64,000 nt of DNA from Ornithodoros turicata (Eukaryota; Arthropoda; Arachnida; Ixodida; Argasidae). Position 1 is the first letter of the stretch; the number at the start of each line of letters is the position of its first letter. This document shows, piece by piece, positions 12,646-51,120 of this stretch. The DNA lies in the NCBI RefSeq assembly GCF_037126465.1, contig NC_088204.1, forward strand, positions 23,070,804 to 23,134,803, in the 5' to 3' direction. A model generated the notes under the pieces. The model worked only from the letters and a program-made list of their open reading frames with translations, was not told the DNA's origin and searched no databases. The position numbers were made by a program, and so were the translations under genes.

Positions 12646-13909
12646 CTTGAATTTTGTACTGGAGCCACGAATTAACACGTGCCAGATCCAAGAGGTGCAT
12701 TAGCACTTGCAGTGTCCACCTTTTTGATTTGCTCTCGCCGCATAGTACGAGGGCATTCTGTCGCACAAGTCAACCCTTCCCATATTAGCGTTATGGTCAC
12801 AAAGTACAAATGGCCTCTCGACGTCAATGTGCTCCCTTTCTTTTTTTGACCAACGCTTACACAGATCCACTGGATGGATACCAGATGATGCTGATACAAG
12901 GAGGACCGGCTTGTTGTCACACCAGCTTACTAGAGCCATTTTCTCATCACTCCTTACGAACTGCTGCATTGCGTTGCATTGCTTTTGTAGCTCTTTGTCG
13001 CTGCACAAATGGACGTTCTTCGGAAGTATTGATTTTATAGTCGTTCTTGTGCCAAAAATATTTCTCGGCAGAAGTGCTTGGAGAAAGGGGACGAATGTAA
13101 ATCACCTGTGAAAGTATATCTTGGACACCCTTGGCACTGTACGACAGGGGTCCACCACAGAATTCCTAGGCACACCTAGTCCATGGTCGTGGAAGGTGTC
13201 CTTTCCTAAATTGAGGATAAAATCGTACATGACATCATCTGGTTCAGCCAACTGGATTCTGCTCGTCACTGCAGGATACTCTGAAACGTGGTATGCTATG
13301 ACATGTTTCTGTTGTCATGATGACAGTACGGTACCACCACTACTTGTCCTTCTTTTTGTCTTCATCACTCACCTGGTCTTCGTCGACCAAGGTAACACTG
13401 TCCCTCATGGAGAAGTATCTCTCTCTCTGCTGATGTTGTCCCGAATGATAGGGACAGCGGTGCCCCGCTTCCAGAAGTACCTGATGTGAGGGTATCCAAG
13501 ACGGAGTGGAAGCCCCAGTAAACTTCATTTCAGTGGGCGTGAAACTTTTCGTTTGAGCACGCGAATATTTGCCTTCTCTGCCATGACTTCAAAGGCGTCG
13601 TTCATTTACTGCGAAAAGTAGTCCATGGTCTTCTTCTTCCTGAAAATGCCTCACTTGGTTCATTCCCTGTATCCGTTCCAGGAATGAAGACCTCAAATCT
13701 CGAAGTAGTAGAGTGACAAGGAGATTAGCTGCATCCCGCGAAATAGGTGGATAGATTCGACCATCGCTACCCTCCTCGTCTGATATCGGAGGATATTTGG
13801 AGCAGGATACTTTCCGCCCAAAGAGGAGCGCGAGCCAAGACCGCCCCGCACGTTTCGCGGCCGCGCGTAGAGAGGGGTTTCCTTCTAGGGTTTGAACATG
13901 CATGAACAT
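12646..13909 (-). pseudogene. piggyBac-family transposase remnant
   Basis: Minus-strand frames in order give YPPISDEEGSDGRIYPP (13.79 kb), then a GLPLRLGYPHIRYFW-like block (13.50 kb). Next come MYDFILNLGKDTF (13.23 kb), LLPRNIFGT (13.07 kb) and ALVSWCDNKPVLLVS with RWSKKEREHI and NMGRVDLCD (12.92-12.76 kb). That order matches the piggyBac DDD transposase, whose last catalytic Asp lies in the NMGGVD-type motif, here NMGRVD. Frames change at least three times and stops interrupt it. No terminal repeats flanked by TTAA were located with confidence. Confidence 0.75.
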
Positions 13910-14049
13910 GCAAAATACATCTTATTCCCTTTCCACATCTTTTAATACATCCCCGAGCGGGGAGTTCTCCTACCGCACATAACATAGCATACTTTCCTCC
14001 TGAAGACATGCAAGCAATAGACATACACATTTGTACAAGTGAAAAATAT

Positions 14050-14200
14050 TTTATTAATGCCAATTAAAGCCAATGGTGCTGGGGATTGCCATTTGTGTTG
14101 CCAATCTGCGTGAAGGAGAAAACCCCAGCGGAAAAACCTTCACACCTGAAACAGAAGAAACATACAAGACAGTACACATTTTCTACAACAGAAAATATTT
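14050..14200 (-). promoter_or_regulatory. 3' UTR and polyadenylation signal of the micro-exon gene
   Basis: Downstream of the TAA at 14203-14201 the minus strand runs about 150 nt to AATAAA at 14055-14050. Most of this tract, including GGTTTTTCCGCTGG and the AATAAA context, is conserved at 59375-59520 beside a decayed paralogous exon. Confidence 0.6.
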
Positions 14201-15694
14201 TTATTGCATATTTAGTAAATCAATTAATGATTGCAATAAACTTTCTTGAATAGCGCCCCTAATGGCGTCCGGATCTGAAAGATAACATATAATCAGCATT
14301 CGCCACATTGCTTACCCAACCAGATGACTCACTGCAGCAGTAGCAGCAATGATCTGAAAGAGAACCTAAATATTAAGAACAACATCCACACTTCCATTCA
14401 CTTATACATACACTGCATAGGGGGGCCAGGGTAATCTGAAAAACAAATACAACAACCATTAATATCGTCTACATAAAATGATATGCCATTGGAACTCTAT
14501 ATCCTGAAAGAGAACATTCACATATACGTACCATGTATAGGGGGGCCAGGGTAATCTGAAAAACAAATACAACAACTATTAATATTGGCTACATAAAAAC
14601 GATATGACACTGGAACTCTATATCCTGAAAGAGAACATTCACATATACGTACGATGCATAGGGGGGCCAGGGTAATCTGAAAACAAATACAACAACTATT
14701 AATATCGGCTACATAAAAACGATATGCCACTGGAACTCTATATCCTGAAAGAGAGCATTCACTTATACATACGCTGCATAGGGGGGCCAGGATAATCTGA
14801 AAAAACAAATACAACAACTATTAATATCATCATCTACATAAAATGATATGTCATTGGAACACTATATCCTCAAAGAGAATGTTCACTAATACATACACTG
14901 CATAGGGGGGCCAGGGTAGTCTGAAAACAAAGACAACAACTATGAATATCATCATCTACATAAAATGATATGCCATTGGAACACTATATCCTGAAAGAGA
15001 ATGTTCACTAGTACATACACTGCATAGGGGGGCCCGGGTAGTCTGAAAACAAAGACAACAACTATTAATATCAAGCATGGTAACAAGACCTATAACTATA
15101 CTCACTGTCTGGTGGTGGTACCCGGTGATCGTCTAAAAGATATTTGCAATTAAGATCAAACATGGAAACAGGATCTATAACTATACTCACTGTCTGGTGG
15201 TGGTACCCTGTGATTATCTAAAAAGATATTTGCTATTAAGATCAACTAATCAAAGTCATATGCTGGTACATACTTTCATTCACTACCACACAAACTGATT
15301 CATCTGAAATGAAACTCATATATTAACATGAAATCTATGAAATGTCGCTAATACATACAGCTTGGTGGTGGCGACTCAGGCGCTGAAAAGAATGGAACTT
15401 TAGATACTTCTCGCTTTCCATATTCACCATTTCCTTACAGTAAAGTAAGGTAAGGTAAGTAAGTAAGGTTCCTTAAGGTACAGTAAGTAAGGTTCCTTAA
15501 AGTAAAACACAGGGCTCGATGTGAATACTGAGAAAGATAATATTCTTAAGAAAATGAACTTAATGAGAAAAACCACCAAAACTCACCACTATCATCATCA
15601 TCTTCAAAACTCGAGAAAACTGAGAAAGACAACTTTCATAAGAAACCTAACTTTAAGGTAAAAACCATCAAAACTTACCACCATCGTTGGACAT
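14201..15694 (-). CDS. Micro-exon gene: acidic, Tyr/Pro/Gly-repeat, Cys-rich small protein
   Basis: Exons by splice sites: 15694-15679 (ATG), 15619-15587, 15527-15439, 15382-15359, 15303-15274, 15217-15191, 15132-15106, 15042-15019, 14920-14897, 14796-14773, 14676-14653, 14555-14532, 14435-14412, 14353-14333, and 14274-14201 ending in TAA. Donors are GTAAGT, GTGAGT, GTAAGG, GTATGT or GTACGT; acceptors are pyrimidine tracts plus CAG or TAG. Introns are 55-63 nt, but about 97 nt inside the array. Internal exons are phase 1-1. Order of parts: MSNDG, FEDDDDS, a PESPPPS exon, two HRVPPPD exons, six YPGPPM exons, YHCCYCC, and a leucine-rich tail of about 24 residues. No signal peptide is seen. The YPGPPM repeats followed by clustered cysteines recall membrane-associated Pro/Tyr-rich proteins, but I do not recognise the family. 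Exon 3 (89 nt, low complexity) leaves the frame off by one, so this copy carries an indel or sequence error there, or uses another junction. Confidence 0.65.
14412..15042 (-). repeat. Tandem array of six ~121-bp units, each with one 24-nt exon
   Basis: The unit lengths are 120-124 bp. Each contains CCCCCCTATGCA-type exon sequence followed by a GTATGT or GTACGT donor. A second CTTTCAG and the block GATATAGAGTTCC follow, then TTTGTTTTTCAG at the next exon. The CTTTCAG lies only about 28 nt after each donor, too short for an intron. The GATATAG block is therefore probably intronic. Confidence 0.85.
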
Positions 15695-15952
15695 GTTGCT
15701 TCGAAGTGTGATGCTCTAGGAACCAAATCTTCGTTTTTTAAAGCTGACGCATCCTCATTATCATATCACATCCTCTCCTACTTTGTATAAACGACTTTTA
15801 GCAACAAGATGGTGGGCTGGAGAAATCCACATGTAGCAAAAAGTCTTTGTAGTAAACAACCAATTGCAAACTAAGGAAAAACGCAACCAATAGGGAAAGT
15901 ATGCACATCCTCTCCATCGGATTCCTTTTCAATATCCTCCTCACAGTCGACG
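15695..15952. promoter_or_regulatory. Divergent intergenic region between two spliced genes
   Basis: The 258 bp separate the minus-strand ATG at 15694 from the plus-strand ATG at 15953. On the minus strand TTTATACAAAG lies about 100 nt before the micro-exon gene's ATG and could be a TATA box. On the plus-strand side AACCAATAGGG provides a CCAAT motif about 70 nt before the ATG. Placement as a shared promoter is an inference from geometry. Confidence 0.4.
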
Positions 15953-16246
15953 ATGGAAGCGCAGAAGTGCTACGCGGTCTCCGAGGACGATTGTATGTAT
16001 AGAAAGTTTTCCTGTTTTTCCCTCTCTAAAAATGTGATTCTTTGTTAAGATTCTGATTGTCTCCTGACGGGGGATCTTCCTCTTGTGAAGACATTGAAGC
16101 CACCACCCAGAACTTTCTTTATACAATATGATGAGCATCTGCGACGCTGTCGTTGTGGTGGATTGTGGTCATCGAATCCATCTCATTGGCTAGACAATAA
16201 CATCCGACCTTATCTCGGTTGCCATCCAAGCTCGGATCAACCATGA
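15953..16246 (+). CDS. Two-exon small ORF overlapping the next gene by ATGA
   Basis: Exon 1 (15953-15992) encodes 13 residues starting MEAQKCYAVSEDD. A GTATGT donor opens a 57-nt intron (15993-16049) ending TTCTTTGTTAAG. Exon 2 (16050-16246) stays open for 64 more codons, with a KPPPRTFF stretch and CRCGG. It ends at TGA 16244-16246, overlapping the ATG at 16243. The unspliced frame is closed by TAA at 16047-16049, right at the acceptor, which fits splicing. The intron size matches those of the divergent micro-exon gene. No family is recognised. If unspliced, the downstream ORF may simply have a longer leader. Confidence 0.4.
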
Positions 16247-16629
16247 AGCCCAGTGAACAATTTGCTTTGACGGTACAATGGCTGATGTACAAGGATTTGA
16301 TGAAATTAAACTCCTATCTGAACTGCAACGGGCCAGAGGCTGATTTTCGTCTCATTATGCAAATTCTCCCGTTTCCGATGCGGACGAAACGAGGAAAGGT
16401 TAGTCGGAGGCTCCAACGCTTCGTCGCCATCAAGTGTGACTTGTTGCGACGGTATGGTCAGGGTGACAATATCTCTCCAACCATACTTAATGCTGGACTC
16501 AAGCGACCAATAATTCTAAACTTTTACATCCAACACTCGGAATACATCGTGCGTCGCAAGAAAGATGGTTGTCGCAAGGTGTCGAGTCTGGAGGACTACC
16601 TTAAAGAGGTCTGTACATTGAAGAAATAA
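16243..16629 (+). CDS. Small basic protein next to virus-like genes, 128 residues
   Basis: The ATG at 16243 begins a clean frame whose TAA is embedded in GAAATAAAATG, so stop codon and polyadenylation signal coincide, a compact arrangement. The product is basic (RTKRGKVSRRLQR, RRKKDGCRKV) and has no signal peptide or membrane segment. It converges on the minus-strand protease gene 17 bp away. I do not recognise the family. Position beside capsid and protease genes suggests a Polinton/Maverick accessory protein. The intact frame is notable beside disabled neighbours. Confidence 0.5.
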   Translation: MKPSEQFALTVQWLMYKDLMKLNSYLNCNGPEADFRLIMQILPFPMRTKRGKVSRRLQRFVAIKCDLLRRYGQGDNISPTILNAGLKRPIILNFYIQHSEYIVRRKKDGCRKVSSLEDYLKEVCTLKK

Positions 16630-16645
16630 AATGAGACATTTTTCT

Positions 16646-17076
16646 TCAAATGAGGTATTCCTCTTCAATCATTTTTATTATCTTGAGGTCATTGTGTACA
16701 AGGTTATTGTCAAATAAGGACACAATGCTCTTGAGTTGGTAATTCTTACAAAGGCGGGAAGCAAAGAAACAAAAAGTCCACAGTGTGAGCTGTAAATGCT
16801 TTGAATGCATTTCTCGCAATACTGATCAACAGGTAGATATAGCAGCTCTTCTTCAATCGGTGGTAGACCAAAGCTGTCCACATAGATGTACTTGTCATTC
16901 CTGTCTCTCATGTACAATAGCCAGTGTTCTCCGGGACCGTCGTGGGGGTGTGTATTGATAACTATAAACCCTTCTGTCGTTAAACTTGGTACTATATCAA
17001 TTGCGAAGGTCCCGCGATACATATTCAAAGTTTCATGGTTCAGAGAAAACAATAATTCTAGATTAAACACATTCAT
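16646..17076 (-). pseudogene. PRO: Adenain-like cysteine protease of Polinton/Maverick type, one frameshift
   Basis: The fold's catalytic triad can be placed: His in PGEHWLLYM, Asp/Glu position in DSFGLPP, and Cys in SSHCGLF. This family (adenovirus protease-like, C5) matures capsid proteins in Polintons and adenoviruses. Right after CGLF the published frame drifts. The conserved tail (QLKSIVSLFDNN and beyond, to TGA at 16646) lies in another frame, explained by one extra T in a T5 run near 16770. The ATG follows the capsid gene's stop by two bases, implying one transcript. ATAATAAAAATG near the end provides a polyadenylation signal. Confidence 0.75.
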
Positions 17077-17078
17077 AC

Positions 17079-18387
17079 TTAGTCCACTCGAACAACAAGA
17101 TCACCATCAACTGATAAAATCTTGGGTGGTTCACTAATAAGTATAACCGACACTGCACAAGGTAATGGCTTAGCAAACTTCATTTCAATCCTGCAATTGC
17201 CCTTGCGCAATGGATTAAAGTAGGAACCAAAACTTTCGTCAGCACTCAAGTTCCAATGCATGATAAAGGAATTTTTTTTATATTTTTCGTAACTCAACTC
17301 GACATGTTTTTCATTCAGTTGATACAAGAATTCGTAGTAGCTTGCTCTAGCCAGATCATTTTCCCAGTCATAGGATAGTTGCCTCCTGTGTCCATCAACT
17401 GATAGTGTTACAGAACTAACATTAAAATGTTCGAAACAAAAGGGGCTCGATTTGTAATCACCCTGATAAGCCTCGGTGCGAACTAGACATACAGTAAGTT
17501 GATCAGGAATTCTATCAGGGAATAAGTTTTCAAAGATTGCACCATGAAGGCCCGGCGAAAGCGAGCGGACTTTGCTTTCTAGTCCACGCATGATGTAACA
17601 TGCCGGGGATGATCTAAGGGCTTTCTGGTGTGCAACAAAACTTGAGTTGCTAACTTTGACTTTGCGTGCTACAAGTGCCGCGCTGTGGATTTTCAATTGA
17701 TGCTTATGAGTTTCATTGGTGCCAGTTAGCAATCTAAAGCTATCCGTATTATGTAGAGCAGTCACTCGAACCCCCACACCAGGTAACAAAAGCCTCCCTT
17801 GGTTTGTGAGGTCGGTATTAACTTTCATGACAATTTCAAATAGTTTCCCTCCACTTGTCCTAGCTACGCGCAACTTTGCATCCCGTGCGACTGGATCATT
17901 TGCTGCATGCTCTCCTGTGTCATATGTATACATTGCACAATCATCTAAAGTCTTCTGCAGATGAGTATTCGTATGAAGTAGGGTATCAATCATACATCGA
18001 TAGGAGTTCAAACAGTTGCTGCTTGTAAGACGTTGATTCAAGTGAATGGTTATATATTTAAATAAAGCGGCACCCAAGTTGTTGACTGGGAATACAGTGT
18101 CCTCAGTGATACCGTCTGCTCTTCAGGTAATTGGTTCACTCCCGTCCGACCTCAATATCTGCATAGTTATATTAAAATACAGAGATGATAAATCGAGATA
18201 CAAGTCTGAGAGATTTGTTATGTTCCATTCGATCGTCGATTCTCCTCCGCTGATTGTAGAAACAGGATAATAAACTTGCGCCTCGCATGATTCTATTGAA
18301 ACTTGGGTAGGAGGTATGTTGAATAACTCACACTCACCCTTCAAAGCCAGCTGGGACCTGTGCGTGTACAACGTTGACCTGCGACAT
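17079..18387 (-). pseudogene. MCP: Polinton/Maverick major capsid protein, nearly full length
   Basis: The ATG at 18387 starts MSQVNVVHAQ, resembling the second copy's INVVH start at 32520. A frameshift near 18337 moves to the frame with ELFNIPPTQVSIE and YLDLSSLYFNI. A TGA at 18125-18123 interrupts it. The remainder (to 17079) is open, with NNLGAALFKYITIHLNQ and the C-terminal ISEPPKILSVDGD. I associate the whole with the double-jelly-roll capsid often annotated as F54H12.2-like in animals. The protein builds icosahedral shells. About 435 codons fit the family only on the short side. Only one frameshift and one stop suggest a fairly young insertion. Confidence 0.7.
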
Positions 18388-18469
18388 CTTTGCAAATGAA
18401 AAGGTACAATGCTTTCCTCATAGCTTTATTTGTTAGCATCTTACCCGAGCAAAAAGACACTTTTTTTCT
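18388..18469. other. Capsid gene leader
   Basis: Short region upstream of the capsid ATG; no TATA box is obvious. Confidence 0.3.
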
Positions 18470-18920
18470 TCCAATCCCCCTTTACCTTTTGACATCGCCC
18501 TCACAACCCAACCCTACCTGGGCCACCTGTATTTCGGAATGCGATGGTCGATTCGAAGCATTGTCCACCACACTTTCTACAAGTGAAAGGCGACCCATTG
18601 TTCGACTTCTAACCAGCTTGGATGCTGATGCACACTTTTAACCCCCCACTGACCACATTTTTTGGAATGCGATCCCGTTCACGATTGGAAACATTGTCCT
18701 CCAGTCCCCTTACCCTTTTGACATTGTCCGCAGGCGAGCATGGTCCGTTTTTGCTAACCACCAGCCGTTCCACTCCTCTAACCCCCCGCTGACCAGCTGT
18801 TTTCAGAATGCGAACCCGCTTCGAAGCATTGTCCGCCACACTTTCTACATGTGAATGGGGGCGACCCATTGTCCCGACTTCTAGCCCCTCTTGGGCGCCA
18901 TTTTCGGAGTGCGACCCTTT
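18470..18920 (-). repeat. Imperfect repeats encoding cysteine-rich units, broken
   Basis: Two related blocks (18531-18620 and 18801-18893) are about 270 bp apart and share TTCGAAGCATTGTCC and CACACTTTCTACA. Shorter related units lie between. In one minus-strand frame the blocks read FTCRKCGGQCFEAGSHSE, a zinc-binding-like pattern. Frames do not stay open across the whole tract. It sits directly upstream of the capsid gene, so it could be a decayed zinc-finger gene of the same element or an unrelated repeat. Confidence 0.4.
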
Positions 18921-18941
18921 TCCATAGAAAAACCTTTTTCT

Positions 18942-19277
18942 TTATAAAGAAGCAACATCAATGTGTTTGACAGCACCGTTTACAGTTTCAGACTTTACCT
19001 TTTCCGGTATCGCGACAGCTGTCTCCTTCTTCGGTAGAAACTGGATGATGCTTTCCTTGTCCGTCGAGCACGTGTGCTTCAAAAACTTGGAGGTATCATG
19101 CGTCCTTCCATGGTACTGCTGCACCGACTTACAATGTCTGCAAGCCAAATAGCCAGCGGTTTCCTTGCCTGCAGAGTCAACGATGTGGCAGAACCTTTCC
19201 CACATCGGCGAGCGTAGTTTCGTTTCGCTTTTGAGGGCGTACTCACCACTCTTCACTTTGCTTTCGACTACATCCAT
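18942..19277 (-). pseudogene. BED zinc-finger exon of a hAT-type transposase
   Basis: The ATG at 19277 opens a frame with RSPMWERFCHIVD, an aromatic start of BED fingers. CRHCKSVQQY and HDTSKFLKHTC supply the C-x2-C and H-x5-C zinc ligands. BED fingers anchor hAT transposases to subterminal repeats. The frame ends at a stop at 18942 without any catalytic domain, so only the DNA-binding end is left. Subterminal repeats of the same presumed element flank it to the right. Confidence 0.65.
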
Positions 19278-27072: not shown

Positions 27073-27525
27073 TTATCTCAGACAGACAGGGGAAAAAATA
27101 CATTTCAACGTTAATATATTGAGTACATGTTTGAGAAAAAGCATGGCAGTCTTGGAGAGATTGATTCCTTTGATGCTGGGCGTGGTTCCGCGGAAATGAC
27201 GGATCATGCAGATGTCTCCGAGAGAGCAGCTGAGAAAAATTTCGTCCTCCGTGAGTTGACACTTCCATGTGCACTGGATATCTTCGTAGCTGTCGCTCAC
27301 TTCCAGCGAGTGAAGGCACGTGCGCAGCGATGCAGTAGCGTTCCTCTCCAGGTTAATGCCGGACCGCATAGGTAGCACGTGCCACTCTCTGATGGCCAAG
27401 ATGTCGCCCGGGCATTCGCGCACGCACGTGTGCTTATCCTTCTCCAGCTTGACGCTCGCCGTACAGTTGCTGGCATCCAGCGCCAGCGCGCACCAGACGA
27501 GCGAGAAGAGAATGAGGTACCACAT
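27073..27525 (-). CDS. Small secreted cysteine-rich protein, 150 residues, intact
   Basis: The ATG at 27525 starts MWYLILFSLVWCALALD, a clear signal peptide with cleavage likely near the final ALA. The mature part has ten cysteines (pairs as HTCVREC, IQCTWKC, SCSLGDIC), two possible N-glycosylation sites (NCT, NAT) and no membrane helix. Such proteins are typical of tick salivary or haemolymph secretions, but I cannot name a family. It lies 90 bp downstream of, and on the same strand as, the disabled Polinton DNA polymerase, yet its own frame is unbroken. It may be element cargo or a host gene. A GCGCAG acceptor-like site precedes the ATG, so an upstream exon is possible. Confidence 0.55.
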   Translation of the reverse strand: MWYLILFSLVWCALALDASNCTASVKLEKDKHTCVRECPGDILAIREWHVLPMRSGINLERNATASLRTCLHSLEVSDSYEDIQCTWKCQLTEDEIFLSCSLGDICMIRHFRGTTPSIKGINLSKTAMLFLKHVLNILTLKCIFSPVCLR

Positions 27526-27616
27526 CCTTCCAGTGACGCAGTTCAAATGACGCTACTCCTTCTCATCCACTGCATTATCTGCGCGGGGAAAAGAATGCCA
27601 GGTGAAATCCTGCTCT

Positions 27617-30600
27617 CTACGTGATCCGCTCAAGCTTACCATATTCGCAGCTTCCGTATGGGTAGGAGTCCACGTCATTGTAGAGGTATTGTTTGTCGTC
27701 ATACTCCATCAGACTTCTTTTCACATTTCTGATGGTGTACGTGCACTGTTTCTTTTCCACTATTGACACGTATTCGTGCGATACACTAGCGTGCTGGAAT
27801 AGGGTATCGTGATACGTATCATGGAGGAGGTGTTTGCTCACAATGTTCTTTTTGACCCCTTTAGCTCTTGCTACCTGTTTTCCCCCGGCTAACTTGATGG
27901 AATACATTTTGGCTTTCAAGCATACTACTTCCTCTATGGGTACGCTACCCATTTCACGTTTGAACGCGCCAAGCCTACCGCGATTCGCTGTACAGCGGAT
28001 GATCCTGATCGAAGGAAGACAAGTTTAATGTTCGTCGGCGATCGCTCGTAACTCATCTTCGTAGTCTTTACAGAATAGGCCGAGGATCAGAGAATCCGTG
28101 TCAGAGTAGCAGATAATCACCGGACAAGTGAGCTTACTCAGCAGGGTTTCATAGTAGAACGAGTACATGGTTAACTCACTCAGTTTTAAAATCGTGTAGC
28201 CAGTCTGCAGGGGGAAATCGCATCACACTTTTCTTTTGCGCATTTTGTAAATGACGCAATCTGGGGACAAAATTTCCATCCGTACACATTCCGCCCGACT
28301 CCCGAGGCAAATCACCATCTCCTCATCGCAGGCTACTCGAATATCCCGCATATTAAATTTATTTAGTAGCGTTCTCCCGAAGACTGCATTATTTGAGATT
28401 TTATAGAAATTTTTCTCGAACGTCGTGCTCGAGGCGGCGCGTCTGGCAACATTCTCCTCGATGTAGGGACTCGGGAATGGTGCCTGATGAAATTTTAGAA
28501 TTCTGTGAATTTTCGTCACCCTCATGCCCAGTCTACAATAGAGCGCGATTAGCGTGTAATGAACGACATACTCGGTCTTATCCTTGCACGTGAGCAGCAG
28601 CTTTTTGCTGTTTGCTGGCTCATACGTTAACTCTTCGAGGAGCCCTCGCTAGAATGGTGAGAGCCATTCCTTCGGGACGACCGCCTTCTTGGGAGCCAGG
28701 GGGAAGTACCGCGTCAGCGCGTGGATAAATTTTGGATACTCCAAGTCGCACACGTACACGTATCCCACATCCGAATCCATGGGATGACGCATAAAATTCA
28801 CCGAGCCAAAATCCTCGACCCATTTAAAATCGCTGACGAGGAGGTGCTTTATCATACTGAATCCGTAAAGATTGTTGCAATCTATGTACGATATGTACAC
28901 CTCCTCTTTATCGGGATCGTAGCCACTGCACAGCGGGTTGTTAGCCCATAAATGATGCCTGCTCGCCTGACACCTAATGCCTCTAACACCCGATTCAATG
29001 GTCCGGTGCATGTCCTCGTCGATGATCAGTTCCAATTTTGCCTGCGTGTAATTTAGAGCGCATTGCCACGAATAGGACGCCAGAGAAACGCACTGAAGCA
29101 ATTCCAAACCGCGTGAGTCGTAGCACAGGTGTCGGAGTGCTGCATTACGTCAGCATGTAACAGGGCATCCATTTTCAGGTACAGTGCATTATAGTCCCTC
29201 GGACTGAAGCATCCAAAACGTTCAAATACGTGCTGCGCGTACTGATAGCCTTCGTCGCTTATATCATCCCCCGTCAGATCGTTTGGAAATGCGGATTTTT
29301 AGCGGCAGAGCAAATTCGCTGTAGACAGCGAACAAGGTAACGTGGCTGTACGGGAATACACCTTTCCGGAGCAAAATTTCGTAGTCTGCTCCAAATACCT
29401 GCTTCAGGCATTGGAACACCTCTGCGCCCCCCATGGATTTGATGGTTTTCACGAGCTCTCCCAGCGACGAATTTAGGTACTGCATGTTATCTCTGAATAG
29501 GGAGGTGCCAATTTCGAACGATCGGATTTTTTCCATGGAAGTGGCCACGATGAAGGGAACTCGCTTCCACCCGAGGAGGTGAAATTCCCGCAGCAGTCCG
29601 GCCAAATCTTTGTTGTGCCAAATTGTGCACAATGATGGGCAGTTTTTCCCGCGTCGTGCACGCCACATTGCAGGAGTTGCACAGCGTCGTGATGTAATTT
29701 CTTTTGCCGGCAGTACAGCGCCTGGAATGGTTGCGATGCCGGACACGGGGTAGATCTTGCGCGACCTCCCGCCTACATTACGCGCAGTGGGTGGCAGTTC
29801 TGTGCTGGTCCCGTTGCTTATCATTCAGCACCATTACGGCGGAGCAGGCGTTCAGGATTATCATCTCGTCCAGCATTTCCATTAAAAATTTGACGCACTG
29901 CCACGCGGAATCTTCACCATGGTGCATCCTGACGCGCATCACCTTCGAGTCGTGGCTGCGCGCGAGCACGGCGTAGAAGCTCGAGGTGACGTGACGCTGC
30001 ATGGCAACACCACTGGGCGCTAGAACGCTCTCCGTCTCTAACGTGACAACATAGTTATACTGCTGCTTGTACTGTATTTTAGTAAATTCTACAAAGTTTT
30101 TGCCCGGTTCGCAAAATTCCAATATGATTTCGTTTACGTCCGCACACAGGTGACAATGTTTGACCATGCTTGTCTTTCCTGATCAGTAACCACTCGAGGG
30201 ACTTGATTCCAAAAAAATACTGATCTGTAGCCAATAAGTGAATTTTCTTTTCAAACTCGAGTATTGGGGGTCGCGACACGTGCACTCCCTGATTGATGTA
30301 CTCATACATGTACACGAATATCTTGTTTTTGTCTTCGAATTCGTCCAGATCAGCGTAGGAAACGGGGAAGCGACTAGGCCATCAATACTCCGACACATAA
30401 TTTTCATTTTTTTTTACCATGTATTCCAACCCTGTGGATGCAGGATAGCGAGCGTATTGTGTTTAAAACACTCATCCTCCTTACGTGCTCGTCAATGAAT
30501 ATTCGTTAGCATGTTCCTGCGTTTAGCCAAATGATCGGGAAGCACCCCATTGCATCCGAATGTTTTAGTTTTCACGGCGGAAATGCACATTTGAACGTTT

Positions 30601-31159
30601 TGGACGTCGTTGGACACGAACCCACTCCCTTCCCGCTGATAATTTTCAACGCGCCCCGTGGACTCTTGAATCACGTCCATCGGGTATTCGCGATGGCTCC
30701 ATCGCTGTGGACTTAGTGAGAAAATGCCATAGAGTGGACGATGTGCGCGGTTATCTCCCCACGAGGTTCCTTTATCATTAAAACATCAGAACGAATGCAA
30801 AGCCTAAAGGGTATAGCGACCTCAATCGCGTATCTCAATATAGCGACCATATCGTGAAAGTGGCTCATTAAATATTGTCGCAAATCCTCTACTCCCTGCT
30901 CGTGAACGGATGCCAATAGCACGTACCTTTTGACAACACCTCTAAATGCACTGTCAGTCTGGAAGAAGGGCAGGAAGGATATATCCACGTTGGGGTGCGA
31001 TCGCATCACATAAGCGCACAGGGTAGGAAGAGCGCCGTCCCGAGAATCGTCTTCCGATTCATCCTCGATATCGTGAGGGTCAAAAAAGCAGAATACACAC
31101 CTAGGCACGGAAAGTAAAAGGAGCCGTAAGAAACGTGCAACAAGTGAGGCGAATAACAT
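27617..31159 (-). pseudogene. POLB: Polinton/Maverick protein-primed DNA polymerase B, multiply broken
   Basis: Read leftward from ATGTTATTC at 31159. N-terminal region (31159-30492) is followed by the exonuclease-side segment with YNYVVTLETES and SFYAVLARSHDSKVMRV (30.0 kb). HLLGWKRVPFIVATSMEKI and YLNSSLGELVKTI come next (29.5 kb). The palm starts with SYSWQCAL and DCNNLYGFSM (motif A, catalytic Asp; 28.9 kb). KISNNAVFGRT is motif B (28.4 kb), YSDTDSL is motif C with the second catalytic Asp pair (28.1 kb). A thumb region with VCLKAKMYS ends at 27617. Length near 1180 codons fits the family. At least six frame changes or stops make it non-functional. It replicates these elements from a terminal protein primer. 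Confidence 0.85.
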
Positions 31160-31210
31160 ATTTTTGAAGTGAGTCGAAGCAGACTGTTCCCCCCTGAGGC
31201 GCTCTCGCAG

Positions 31211-31218
31211 CTTATAAA
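31211..31218 (-). promoter_or_regulatory. TATA box upstream of the DNA polymerase gene
   Basis: TTTATAAG on the minus strand lies about 55 bases before the polymerase ATG at 31159, the expected distance for a short leader. Confidence 0.45.
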
Positions 31219-31232
31219 CTAGTAGCCACGCT

Positions 31233-31430
31233 GCATGTCAGAACACGTTGGGGCATCTGTTTTATATCGGAGCTCGCGTACTCCCATGCTTCGGGGGTCG
31301 TAAATCATGTTTGTCATGAAACGAGGTCATGGAGCCTCGGCCGCCGTGGTGCATGTCTCAACACGTTGGGCCATCTGTTTTATATCAGAGCTCACAGTTT
31401 GAAGATCGTAAATCATGTTCTTCGAGAAAT
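31233..31430. repeat. Two ~118-bp-spaced direct repeats in the element's non-coding gap
   Basis: GCATGTCAGAACACGTTGGG begins a block at 31233 whose relative starts at 31351. Both run through CATCTGTTTTATATC and GTAAATCATGTT. They sit between polymerase and protease genes and may be promoter or enhancer repeats. The next 250 bp (31440-31690) hold no recognisable gene. Confidence 0.65.
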
Positions 31431-31689
31431 TAAGTCATCTACGTTCAGCGGTCACACTGCGAGGCCGCGTGTATTAAAAAAGTAAACTGTTCTTCCTGAT
31501 AAGACAAGTCTATCTTATGAAAAAAGATCCCTACGAGCCCACGTCAAAGCAGACTGCCTGTCATAGTCTTCTCATTTCCACATGCAAAAAACAAGCTTTC
31601 TGTAACCAAAAACAAAGGGTGCGCTTATGCACTTTGGTTTCCAAGAAGTTCCAAATGTCCTTCGCAGCTAACGTGCACGCTCGCCATAT

Positions 31690-32096
31690 ATCACGGGCAT
31701 ATATCATTAGCGGCGAGATTATCAGAAAACAGGGATAAAATGCTCTTCAGTGATTTCCCTTTCGCCAACAATGTCGCCACGATACAACAGTACACACCAC
31801 ACATTGGAGAATACATAGCTTTGAATATGGACATCACTATATTCATCGACTGCAAGGCGTTTCAGCTCGGGTTCGATGGGCGGCAATCCGAAGGAATCAA
31901 AGTAGATGAAGTCATCCTTCATTTTCGTGTAGAGAATCCAGTGCTCCCCAGCTTGCTGTCACCGATCGGTGTTGACCACGATTATTCCTGGTTTATCCAG
32001 CGCATGCAGACAATCTTCTCGCGTGTATACACCACGGAAGAGTGCCGAAGTATAATCGTTGTACTTCAGGAGTCTCTCGATATCTTGCTCGAACAT
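31690..32096 (-). pseudogene. PRO: Adenain-like cysteine protease, second Polinton copy
   Basis: From the ATG at 32096 the frame gives NDYTSALFRGVYTREDCLHA, then an in-frame TGA near 31932. GEHWILYTK (catalytic His) and DSFGLPPIEPEL follow. The catalytic Cys (CGVYCCIV) lies in another frame after a frameshift near 31785. The same His-Asp-Cys layout occurs at 17076-16646, and both follow a capsid gene on the same strand. Two disablements make it a pseudogene. Confidence 0.7.
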
Positions 32097-32123
32097 CGCT
32101 AATCCAGTGTGACGTTCCTGTTC

Positions 32124-32520
32124 TTATCCATCCAGGTAGCTTCTATAGCTATACAAGTTATTATTGGTAATCATGGTCTCATTCAAGAAGACGGCTACGT
32201 TCTTGAAAAGCGAGCTGGCGAACGCGTTGACGGAGTAGACCTCGTCGTAGGTCGTCCGATCGCCAGAGTGTGTTTCCGGTAGCGAACCATCGTCACGTAC
32301 AATGCGGACTTTCGTCACTATATACGCGGCGTTCAAATCGAGATACTGGTGCCCCAAATTCAAATGCTGGAACTCTATGCCGGAGGATATGGAAGTGACC
32401 GGGCAGAATACCTCGTATTCCCCCTTCAGTATATGCCTGCGTTCGCGGCACGGAAAATAAGTGTGTTTCTGATTTATCCAACAAAGGAGTGTCGGGGTGT
32501 ACGACGTTAATCGTGTCCAT
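32124..32520 (-). pseudogene. MCP: Polinton/Maverick major capsid protein, N-terminal third only
   Basis: ATG at 32520 (MDTINVVHPDTPLL) starts the protein. After a frameshift the open part shows LGHQYLDLNAAYIVTKVRI and NAFASSLFKNVAVFLNETMI, ending in NNNLYSYRSYLDG. These match the family's first jelly roll. Compared with 18387-17079, the C-terminal two thirds are deleted and the protease follows directly. Confidence 0.7.
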
Positions 32521-32527
32521 CTCGTAA

Positions 32528-32752
32528 CTAAATTGTGGCCGCGCAACCGCCGTAATTTATGCTGTCCAAGACGTCCGGTTTTCTCCTCTTTCTCCGCCCG
32601 GCCCCTCCCAGGTCTCGGAGAATTTCGTGGCCCGTATCTTTCGCCGATCTTTTAAGTGCACTTCGGAAATAGTCTCCCTGACTCACGCTCGCACGATACG
32701 CCGCGCTAGTATAACAATGATAAACAACTTCTGTGCACCACACAAGAGACAA
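32528..32752 (-). pseudogene. Small basic virion-like protein of the Polinton element
   Basis: The frame has GDYFRSALKRSAKDTGHEIL and GGAGRRKRRKPD. Adintovirus/Polinton elements and adenoviruses encode short basic core-type proteins with such a Gly-Arg-Lys patch next to the capsid gene. It is first in the series core-like protein, capsid, protease, polymerase on the minus strand. Its 5' end abuts the truncated Tigger element, so the start is uncertain. Confidence 0.5.
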
Positions 32753-32780
32753 CGCAGTCTATTGCTATCTATATACAAGC

Positions 32781-34067
32781 TTATTCACTATCACTGCCGA
32801 TGGAGTCATTTGAGTCGGATTGCGAGCTGCCCTCTGTGTCGTCGGCGTCCCACAGGATGTCGTCCTCGGTTCCATCCAAGGCATTGCTGATGGCACATTT
32901 CTTGAATGATCTCACCACAATTTCTGGCTGTACTGCCTTCCAAGCATTTGACACCCACTGCGCTATTGCCGCCGCGGACGCCTTCCTTATTTTTCTGGTT
33001 GGTGTCACTTCCCGGTTGTTGGCCCGGATCCAGTCCTCGTACTTCGCACGGAGGTTTGCCTTGAACGGCTTACGAACAGAAACATCAAGAGGCTGCAACA
33101 CTGACGTGAGGCTTCCAGGGATGATGACCAAGTCTGTGTTCCGTCCTTTACGCGTTGCCTTGACTTCATCTGTCAAATGGCCACGGAAAGCGTCCAACAC
33201 TAACATCGATGGCGTACGGAAAAGTGCGCCGGGCCGCCGCTGCCACACAGTCCTCACCCAGTCAACCATCAGGTCAGACGTCATCCAGTCCTGTTGCTGG
33301 CAACGCACGATAACAACCTTTGGGAACACCTCGTTTTTAGGTAGAATTTTCCTCTTCAGGATGATATATGGCGGCAGTTTCCTTCCGTCAGCTGTTACAT
33401 CACCGTTGTTACACCGTTACATCACCGTGACGCGAAGCTTCTCGTCGCCTGTTGTGCGTACTGTTACTTGCTTCGCTCAGATCTCGTTGACCGTCGTTGC
33501 CCGTGGCATATCAAGGTATACAGCAGTTTCGTCAGCATTACCAATCTGTCCCATAACGTATTCGTTGCTCTTTCGTAGCTCGGTGACATACCGCTGGAAG
33601 GCCGTGATCTTGTCCTCCATGTCTCGTGGCAGCTTCTGACAGATTGTGGTCCTTCGTCGAACGGAAAACCCTTGGCGTCGCATGAAGCGTTCAACCCATC
33701 CACGGCTGGCTCTGAACACGTGGCGTGGAATATCCAACGTCTTCGCGATTTCCCTGGCTTTCTCACGAATGCCGTCGGCGGTCACAGCAAAGTCGTCTCT
33801 CCTTTCTTTTCTCACGTGCTCCGCAACTTTGGCTTCCAGCTCTGGATGCCTGCCTTCCTTTGGTCCCGAGAACTTCTTCCTCGTCGACGTGCAGCTGAAG
33901 ATGGCGTCCCACTGCTGGCGCCAGCGAATAACGCATGTCCTTCCCAAGCTGAATTCCTCTGCTGCCTGATGACTACTATGCGATTCCGCGTACAAAATCA
34001 CCTTGTGCTTGAACTGGGCAGAGTATGATGCCGTCTTCGAACTCATCATGCGTGGGTAGCTGAGCAA
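32781..34067 (-). pseudogene. Tigger/pogo transposase, one frameshift region
   Basis: Starting at 34067: helix-turn-helix segment with ASYSAQFKHKVILYAESH, second DNA-binding helix region with GWVERFMRRQGFSVRRRT, then NADETAVYLDMP (first catalytic Asp). After a frameshift around 33350-33475, LVLDAFRGHLTDEVKATRK gives the second Asp and LQPLDVSVRKPFK the third, completing a DDD triad of the pogo branch of Tc1/mariner. An acidic tail ends at 32781. About 430 codons is normal length. A small tandem duplication of TTACATCACCG near 33395-33430 probably caused the frameshift. The right TIR ends ATACGGTA at about 34354. Confidence 0.85.
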
Positions 34068-41646: not shown

Positions 41647-42604
41647 CTACTTGTTGACGGCCTGCAAAGCCGAGTAGACGCCGGTGGCGTTTCTCTGCGG
41701 GGTAGGTGGAACAACGCTGACGTCAGCCCCGGTATCCACTAGGAAGCGACAGCCGGACACGGGGTCCGTGATCCAGAAGAGCCGGCTGTTGTCGCCCCCA
41801 GCCATGCCAGCCGTTAATGGTTGGGGGAGCGCTTCCCGCTCACGAGCAAGGGGCCTGGCAGTTTCTTGCGGCGTCGCCGAATTTACGATGGTACCAGCAG
41901 AACTGGTGCTGAGAGGGCGAAGGAGACCGGTAACGGGATGGTGAGCAGCGACGGCAAAAGGAGTGCCGCAGGGAACGCGGTCGCTGGGCGGGAATGGCGG
42001 CCACCCCGTTCGCCAGGACCACCACAGTCTGCAGTTGCTGGAGTGACGTGCTGATGGCATTGATGGCAATGTCCACAGGTGGAGGGGAGCTGCGGGGAAC
42101 AAGAGCGGCAACGGCGCCTGCCGGTGGGAGGCCAGCGAAATCCAGAATTCGGTCCGCCATCTTCGCCATGTCATCCAGGCGGGAATATTCGCCGGCTGCC
42201 AAGATCATGCGTACATTGTGGGGTAAACGTTGTAAGAAAAGTTCGCGTAGTATTGAATCGTCCGTGGTAGGGTTGCCAGCGAGGTCGCGCATACGGCGTA
42301 GTAGCTGTGTGGACCGCCGATCGCCGAGCTCTTCACTGTTGAGAAGCTGCTGCAAACGACGCTCCTCAGAAGCAGACGTACGGCGAATCAACTTGTCCCT
42401 TAAGGTGTCATAGGGCAACTCCGCATGAGGATGGATGATTAGATGGCGGACTTCCGCCGCAGCTTCGGGAGGAAGGTTTGCGATGGCGTAGCCAAACCTT
42501 GATGTCTGAGATGTGATGTGACGTCCGTTGAAGAGAACCTCCGCCTGCGCGAACCACAGCTGAGGGTCTGAGATGGAGAAAGGCTGCAGGCGGAGCGGTG
42601 CCAC
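41647..42604 (-). pseudogene. gag: Gypsy Gag and protease
   Basis: From MAPLRLQPFSISDPQLWFAQ at 42604 the Gag reads LPPEAAAEVRHLI, PYDTLRDKLIRRTSASEERRLQQLL, GDRRSTQLLRRMRDL and SILRELFLQRLPHNVRMILA. This is the DUF7041-like Gag of arthropod Gypsy elements. A knuckle-like CWYHRKFGDAARNCQAPC closes it. A frameshift leads into the protease with FLVDTGADVSVVP, the Asp-Thr-Gly active site. Gag itself is open over 250 codons. The decayed Gag at 9-11 kb belongs to the same family. Confidence 0.8.
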
Positions 42605-42714
42605 AGAAGCTTCAAGCGGTGGAAGTGGCGGTGGCCGGTTGGGAGGCGAAGGGATGGTGGAGTGTGGTCACCGTTCATGATGGTGGAACGTTGGAACGCT
42701 CGTCTGGGTCACCA

Positions 42715-50809: not shown

Positions 50810-51120
50810 TTAAAACCCCCTTTTATGAGCTGCATTTTTGCAAAAACGTACCCTTTATTTTATGCGGTACAAAAGCGTCTAAAAGGTGCGTCTACAGCAC
50901 CTTTAAGGTACTGCTGTCTAACAGGTACCTCCGTATAAAGGCTACAGCCGTCTAGCAGGTACACCCGTATAAGAGGTACAGCCGTGTAAGAGGTACTGCC
51001 GTCTAACAAGTACAGCCATTTTAAAGGTACCGTCGTCTAAAGGGTAAAACCGTCTAAAAGGTACAGCCGTCTAACAGGTACGCCAGTCTAACAGATACGC
51101 CCGTGTAAAAGGTACAGTTG
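50810..51120. repeat. Degenerate ~17-bp minisatellite GTACAGCCGTCTAAxAG
   Basis: About fifteen units such as GGTACAGCCGTCTAACA follow each other with drift; some units begin GGTACGCCAGTCTAACA. GGTACC-type ends make the units partly palindromic. Confidence 0.8.

Follow-up and report, generated by a model that had tools for sequence, protein, structure and literature searches.

Micro-exon genes have so far passed for an oddity found in a handful of parasite lineages. According to one review (PMC8293314), the MEGs of schistosomes are defined by exons that are mostly symmetric and no longer than 36 nt, and they seem to be restricted to schistosomes. The bicycle genes of aphids have ~17 exons on average, the small internal ones starting at codon position 2 (PMC9168663). 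Ginger DNA transposons have their own gene interrupted by 1–4 mostly canonical GT-AG introns, and the accessible portion of the paper that describes them does not mention micro-exons (PMC2836005). As for Polintons and their kin, the available passages report 134 intact vertebrate Mavericks as intronless (PMC8097293) and, for polinton-like viruses, only self-splicing group I introns (PMC12220804). Endogenous viral elements of hard ticks are the subject of one study that reports adintovirus integrases in Ixodes; its main text contains neither 'splic-' nor 'intron' nor 'Ornithodoros' (PMC10675110). In the open-access literature searched, we found no description of a Polinton with a micro-exon gene.

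The locus described here lies in a stretch of 64,000 nt from the tick Ornithodoros turicata (the 'window', meaning the whole of the DNA analysed). It contains what we read, with a probability of roughly 85%, as a decayed copy of a micro-exon gene of the Polinton/Maverick family, one that, judging from the DNA, would be spliced in working copies. The carrier resembles Polintons/Mavericks (Orthopolintovirales, adintoviruses) in its integrase with a chromodomain, its terminal inverted repeats and its 6-bp target duplication, and perhaps also in its capsid-like gene, its weakly matched adenovirus-type protease and its ATPase-like ORF; it differs from them in carrying a gene of 10–43 micro-exons. 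The gene itself resembles schistosome MEGs in that short exons (36 nt or less), most of them symmetric, make up the bulk of its coding sequence. It differs from them in being borne by a mobile element, in having no signal peptide evident by eye, and in having tandem, near-identical exons. With the aphid bicycle genes it shares exon phase and a Cys-Tyr-Cys in exon 14, but those genes are described as secreted gall effectors, whereas the tick product is proline-rich and, by eye, has no signal-peptide-like start. Bicycle proteins carry two Cys-Tyr-Cys motifs; the spliced tick proteins carry one. Protein searches revealed no sequence relation to bicycle genes and no homology to schistosome MEGs, a search of 5.77 billion proteins for shared short exact words returning only the O. 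turicata protein P0001. Like Ginger, the element has a gene of its own with predicted GT-AG introns, but the Ginger introns are few and interrupt the transposase, not an accessory gene. We have classed the carrier as a Polinton; the gene we regard as micro-exon-like, a member of neither micro-exon family.

The micro-exon chain and its copies

The chain occupies the minus strand, from an ATG at 15694 to a stop codon ending at 14201. It comprises fifteen short segments, with AG/GT at each internal boundary. Exon 1 (15679–15694, 16 nt) provides the ATG and is followed by a GTAAGT donor; exon 2 (15587–15619, 33 nt) encodes an acidic stretch; exon 3 (15439–15527) is 89 nt long here; exon 4 (15359–15382, 24 nt) encodes PESPPPS in open copies; and exon 5 (15274–15303, 30 nt) encodes YESVCVV..NE. 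Exons 6 (15191–15217, within an 85-nt tandem unit) and 7 (15106–15132) are 27 nt each and of the HRVPPPD type. The next six, 24 nt each and beginning with exon 8 of the YPGPPMQ type, are the array exons 1–6: exons 8 (15019–15042), 9 (14897–14920), 10 (14773–14796), 11 (14653–14676), 12 (14532–14555) and 13 (14412–14435). Together they form one tandem repeat of period 120 bp, at 14395–15071. Exon 14 (14333–14353, 21 nt) encodes HCCYCC in open copies, and the terminal exon 15 (14201–14274) ends in a TAA stop that is overlapped by an AATAAA.

The first-pass annotation, made from the letters of the window alone, had placed the start, the end and the ATG of this chain correctly, as it had the exon sizes and the consistent donors and acceptors. 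It had also described the introns as uniformly 55–63 nt, and in this it was mistaken: by their coordinates only nine of the fourteen fall in that range, and the five inside the tandem array are 96–100 nt. Its statement that nearly all the exons are of phase 1-1 holds for open copies but not for exon 3 of the window. Among the 29 copies that have both gene ends, 26 have an exon 3 of 36 nt, symmetric (1-1); in the window a low-complexity insertion throws the chain out of phase and translation runs into stops, so the window copy is dead. The evidence favors a genuine micro-exon gene with symmetric exons, as the annotation had proposed, but this copy of it no longer works. The earlier observation is partly confirmed, then, and the earlier interpretation partly supported.

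Across the assembly (1.07 Gb, 379 contigs), DNA of the array gave at least 154 matches at no fewer than about 38 dispersed places, with 39 of 100 candidates scored. The set used for comparison holds 38 sequences: 20 long loci (9.9 kb), 17 shorter loci and the window. The 5' part of the gene is present in 34, the 3' part in 32 and both in 29; counts of open frames exclude the other nine. Over the 34 5' parts and 32 3' parts, and leaving aside array exons and exons under half length, 257 of 265 acceptors are AG and 265 of 267 donors are GT, which gives 522 of 532 sites in all. Array exons, collected from 21 sequences by a pattern that included the donor, are preceded by AG in 116 of 122 cases and followed by GT in 120 of 122. 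A second exon in each array repeat, with its acceptor before GATATAG, was considered and rejected: by eye, an in-phase join would create a stop in those units that were read, and several units lack a GT donor for it.

Twenty of the 29 copies, among them L020, L022, L027, L029 and L032, have a spliced frame that stays open from ATG to stop; these have 12–19 exons and encode 119–174 residues. Taking all copies, open or not, exon number ranges from 10 to 43, with one to four 27-nt exons of the HRVPPPD type and two to 35 24-nt exons of the YPGPPMQ type. The nine copies in which the frame fails include the window copy and L051, the one with 35 array exons. Among open copies, the lengths of exons 1–7 differ by multiples of three; exon 2, for example, is 39 nt in L045, and exon 7 is 24 nt in the alignment of L041 and absent from L045. 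L044 was counted as open and has a non-GT donor 1. In several open copies the largest gap between recognized exons exceeds 150 nt (3413 in L044, 420 in L052 and 181–238 in others), so exons may have been missed there, or DNA inserted. Because each exon-plus-intron unit is symmetric, the number of repeats can change by tandem duplication or loss without breaking the frame. The variation in exon number is variation between genomic copies, not between transcripts.

An open frame is weak evidence in this setting, given how closely the copies are related and how short the stretch is. When the mask is shifted by multiples of three, from -18 to +9, 27–30 of 34 copies are open; with the true mask, 30 are. 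The comparison was dropped as the main proof because it does not discriminate.

The carrier element

The first-pass annotation took the chain for a single tick gene. It appears to be a gene of a Polinton instead. A plain tick gene was discarded as an explanation because the array recurs at dozens of places and because, in 17 of the 20 long loci, it lies beside genes of the element, homology to the window reaching the protease/capsid stretch in each of these 17. In many loci this homology spans the window from 13748–13759 to about 18966. The three other long loci contain less: L023 reaches only as far as ORF142, L034 has the gene and the terminus only, and L017 the gene sequence only.

In the window, the element's terminus, AGTAGTAG, is at 13704, and the terminal inverted repeat region extends to 13950, an approximate inner limit taken from the 273-bp repeat of another copy. 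On the far side of the micro-exon gene, and transcribed away from it, is ORF142 (16201–16629, plus strand), a conserved, unnamed gene of the element with no Pfam hit. There follow, on the minus strand, the remains of an adenovirus/Ulp1-type cysteine protease gene (16678–17100), which has relatives in other copies and no Pfam hit for the window piece, and part of a capsid-like gene (17079–18122), beyond which homology to other copies ends near 18966.

ORFs were read in five copies (L018, L020, L028, L030 and L035), and gene content differs between them. Across the five there are an integrase with a chromodomain, structural-type proteins of 441 and 445 aa, a weakly recognized adenovirus/Ulp1-type protease, and a 142-aa ORF on the opposite strand; an ATPase-like ORF with a Walker A motif was identified by eye. 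In L020, Pfam recognizes an rve integrase (3.4e-9) and a chromodomain (Chromo, 1.7e-9) upstream of the micro-exon gene in the same locus. The protease of L020 matches Peptidase_C48 at 0.0015 and C5 at 0.0044, both below the Pfam cut-off. Its 445-aa capsid-like protein, which we take to be the capsid from its position, has five relatives at 27–70% identity, no Pfam hit, and no relatives in the viral contigs searched.

One element, formed by L028 and the adjoining L053, is seen at both ends. It spans ~8.9 kb between 273-bp inverted repeats of 98.5% identity, with termini AGTAGTAG...CTACTACT and a 6-bp duplication, TATATA, on both sides. The micro-exon gene is inside the repeats, its stop ~250 bp from the inner edge of one of them. 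ATPase-like, structural and protease genes are present in this element, too. No integrase ORF was seen in its 8.9 kb, and no polymerase-like ORF such as would represent a protein-primed type B DNA polymerase; perhaps it is a non-autonomous derivative. We call the carrier a Polinton/Maverick on account of its inverted repeats, target duplication, integrase and element genes.

Two copies, L027 and L029, are 99.8% identical over 8.15 kb and differ in their right flanks, which indicates that the family moved recently. The window copy (13704–18966) and L035, 0.7 Mb apart on the same contig, share an insertion site and flanks, and apparently stem from a segmental duplication; the gene is open in L035 and not in the window.

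Other features of the window can be mentioned here. A second, different and degraded Polinton-like region occupies 27073–33416. Its polymerase-B-like ORFs (28223–29824) and capsid-like ORF (32124–32651) were named by eye, the pieces tested having no Pfam hit, and it is interrupted by a DDE_1 transposase (32781–33416; Pfam 1.6e-28). Beside the element that carries the micro-exon gene is a transposase fragment, DDE_Tnp_1_7 (12700–13101; 4.1e-7), presumably of the piggyBac type. An ORF with DUF7041 (41840–42667; 1e-25) is, we assume, a gag-like piece of a retroelement, and a 17-bp tandem repeat of 12.5 copies lies at 50906–51117.

Variation within and around the exons

If the spliced frame is used while the element is active, variants shared between copies should favor synonymous changes, and rare variants, most of which will have arisen after insertion, should look neutral. 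The comparison concerns exons 1–5, which lie outside the array and the 27-nt units. Variants present in three or more copies were nonsynonymous to synonymous (N:S) 3:10, an omega-like ratio of 0.10 (p 1.4e-4), and at a looser threshold 10:13, a ratio of 0.26 (p 0.0014), values of p that are optimistic because the copies are related and the variants not fully independent events. Rare variants, on the other hand, were 31:10 and 38:13, with ratios of 1.05 and 0.99 (p 1.0). The test spans four predicted junctions and so needs the exons to be joined in the stated phase; it is this that makes the chain more than chance. In all probability, then, selection acted on the spliced frame during the element's active period. 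Exons 14 and 15 are without clear purifying selection, with omega-like ratios for shared variants of 0.96 and 0.76. In the first 20 loci, private variants of exons 1–7 were 9:12 and did not look neutral, a result superseded by the larger set.

Pairwise diversity is 0.031–0.057 in introns 1–6 and 0.043 in intron 14; the sequence upstream of the ATG gives 0.049, that downstream of the stop 0.031, and a short aligned piece of intron 7 gives 0.09. It is raised in exon 3 (0.085), exon 5 (0.072) and exon 15 (0.14), and not in exons 1, 2, 4 and 14 (0.018–0.046). The values for exons 6 and 7, 0.123 and 0.155, come from columns that mix paralogous units, there being one to four per copy, and an earlier reading of them as fast evolution was withdrawn for that reason. 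Exon 15 holds 25 variants found in three or more copies in its 74 nt, against 3 in the 117 nt directly after it, so that the pattern changes at the predicted boundary.

Synonymous sites of exons 1–5 vary, too: they have 0.284 shared variants per site compared to 0.042 in the interiors of introns 1–4 (p 6e-5). At the looser threshold these become 0.369 and 0.109 (p 4e-4), and other genes of the element have 0.025–0.089 and spacer 0.079, figures drawn from only 11–16 copies and hence not strictly comparable. The interiors of introns 1 and 2 are 70% alike, and exons 1, 2 and 3 have no mutual likeness; exons 5, 6 and 7 resemble one another, as do introns 5 and 6. Where exons vary more than introns, either the introns may be constrained, consistent with very short introns being recognized as units, or the exons may be exchanged or driven to diversify.

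The predicted product and competing explanations

In most open copies the predicted protein starts MANDGVFSSFEDDDDSVFTSSPVFYFEDAPESPPPSYESV, followed by repeats of HRVPPPDN and YPGPPMQ, then by HCCYCC and a tail rich in leucine; PPPSY is among its motifs. The first-pass annotation had likened it to the secreted proteins of schistosomes, an analogy that finds no support in the N-terminus, MANDGVFSSFEDDDDS, which does not, by eye, resemble the start of a signal peptide. Pfam gave a single sub-threshold hit to the product, DUF3432 (E 0.031). No homologues beyond O. turicata came from a profile search or from the short-exact-word search of 5.77 billion proteins, and a 65-residue piece had no relatives in phage records. 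The sole relative, P0001 (LOC135388778), is an independent NCBI gene model at a site outside the loci compared here. Like our model, it joins exons 3, 4 and 5 to the 27-nt exons, a single array-like exon and exon 14, but at either end two dozen residues differ, and by eye these read through introns 2 and 14; departing at both ends in this way, it shows that the annotation pipeline did not recover the full chain. P0001 is support for a part of the chain and at odds with the remainder.

Could the working gene be the tick's own, captured by Polintons or hitch-hiking with them, its product secreted in saliva, for example, and the dispersed copies mere by-products? Symmetric micro-exons are known in effectors of hosts, in schistosome MEGs (PMC8293314) and aphid bicycle genes (PMC9168663), and introns are unusual for Polintons (PMC8097293). 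Yet the gene lies inside inverted repeats along with capsid and protease genes in the one element with both ends examined, and the same element neighborhood recurs in 17 of the 20 long loci, the 17 shorter ones including too little flank. Protein searches reveal no host relative, moreover, and the N-terminus by eye has no look of secretion; we consider a host gene improbable. The notion that there is no gene at all, only a non-coding tandem repeat near the end of an element with exons conjured from chance AG...GT spacings in a minisatellite, draws on the 120-bp tandem array at the center and on the ease with which shifted masks stay open. It is very hard to square with the synonymous excess among shared variants, set against neutral rare ones, in exons that lie outside the array; with the 522 of 532 splice sites that have been kept; and with the change in variant pattern at the edge of exon 15. 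It was discarded following the codon test.

A gene of the Polinton, presumably spliced in working copies, remains our preferred reading, and the question becomes where the diversity of its products might originate. Skipping of symmetric exons could generate many proteins from one copy, as proposed for schistosome MEGs, and in open copies the internal exons are indeed symmetric such that any skip would keep the frame. But purifying selection on exons 1–5 is equally expected if all the exons are included, and variation is already made in the DNA by unit number; a generator of isoforms seems to us rather unlikely.

Under the Polinton reading, host spliceosomes would join the 12–19 exons of working copies, the internal ones nearly all 21–39 nt and of phase 1-1, across introns of mostly 55–63 or roughly 95–120 nt. 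Duplication or loss of an 85- or ~120-nt unit would change the number of repeats and keep the frame, and since the cassettes are symmetric, the array could grow without penalty. The product would be a proline-rich, probably disordered protein of 119–174 residues. It may serve as an accessory protein, its proline repeats and PPxY motif—PPPSY, we presume, fits this type of WW-domain ligand—binding WW-domain or trafficking proteins of the host; in this contact with ubiquitin-ligase or trafficking machinery, the number of repeats and the tail would be what varies. HCCYCC and the variable C-terminal segment might act at membranes or on host partners. The role as a host-trafficking adaptor, like splicing in vivo, we infer, the former from motifs. 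Gene structure, membership in the element, synonymous excess in the spliced frame and variation in repeat number between copies are matters of observation.

Taken further, and at a little under even odds in our estimation, a virus-like element of animals may have evolved a micro-exon gene of its own, in which cassettes expand and contract in frame and from which the spliceosome would make variable repeat proteins for the host interface, several exons having diverged faster than introns as they do in the effector genes of arms races. At least one copy of the gene is already listed as an uncharacterized tick protein (LOC135388778). That a Polinton has a gene of 10–43 micro-exons suggests that one gene of a virus-like element can be dependent on the spliceosome of the host. 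It would represent a second path to repeat proteins that vary in frame, and with dozens of natural copies to compare, one can trace how symmetric exons arise and disappear.
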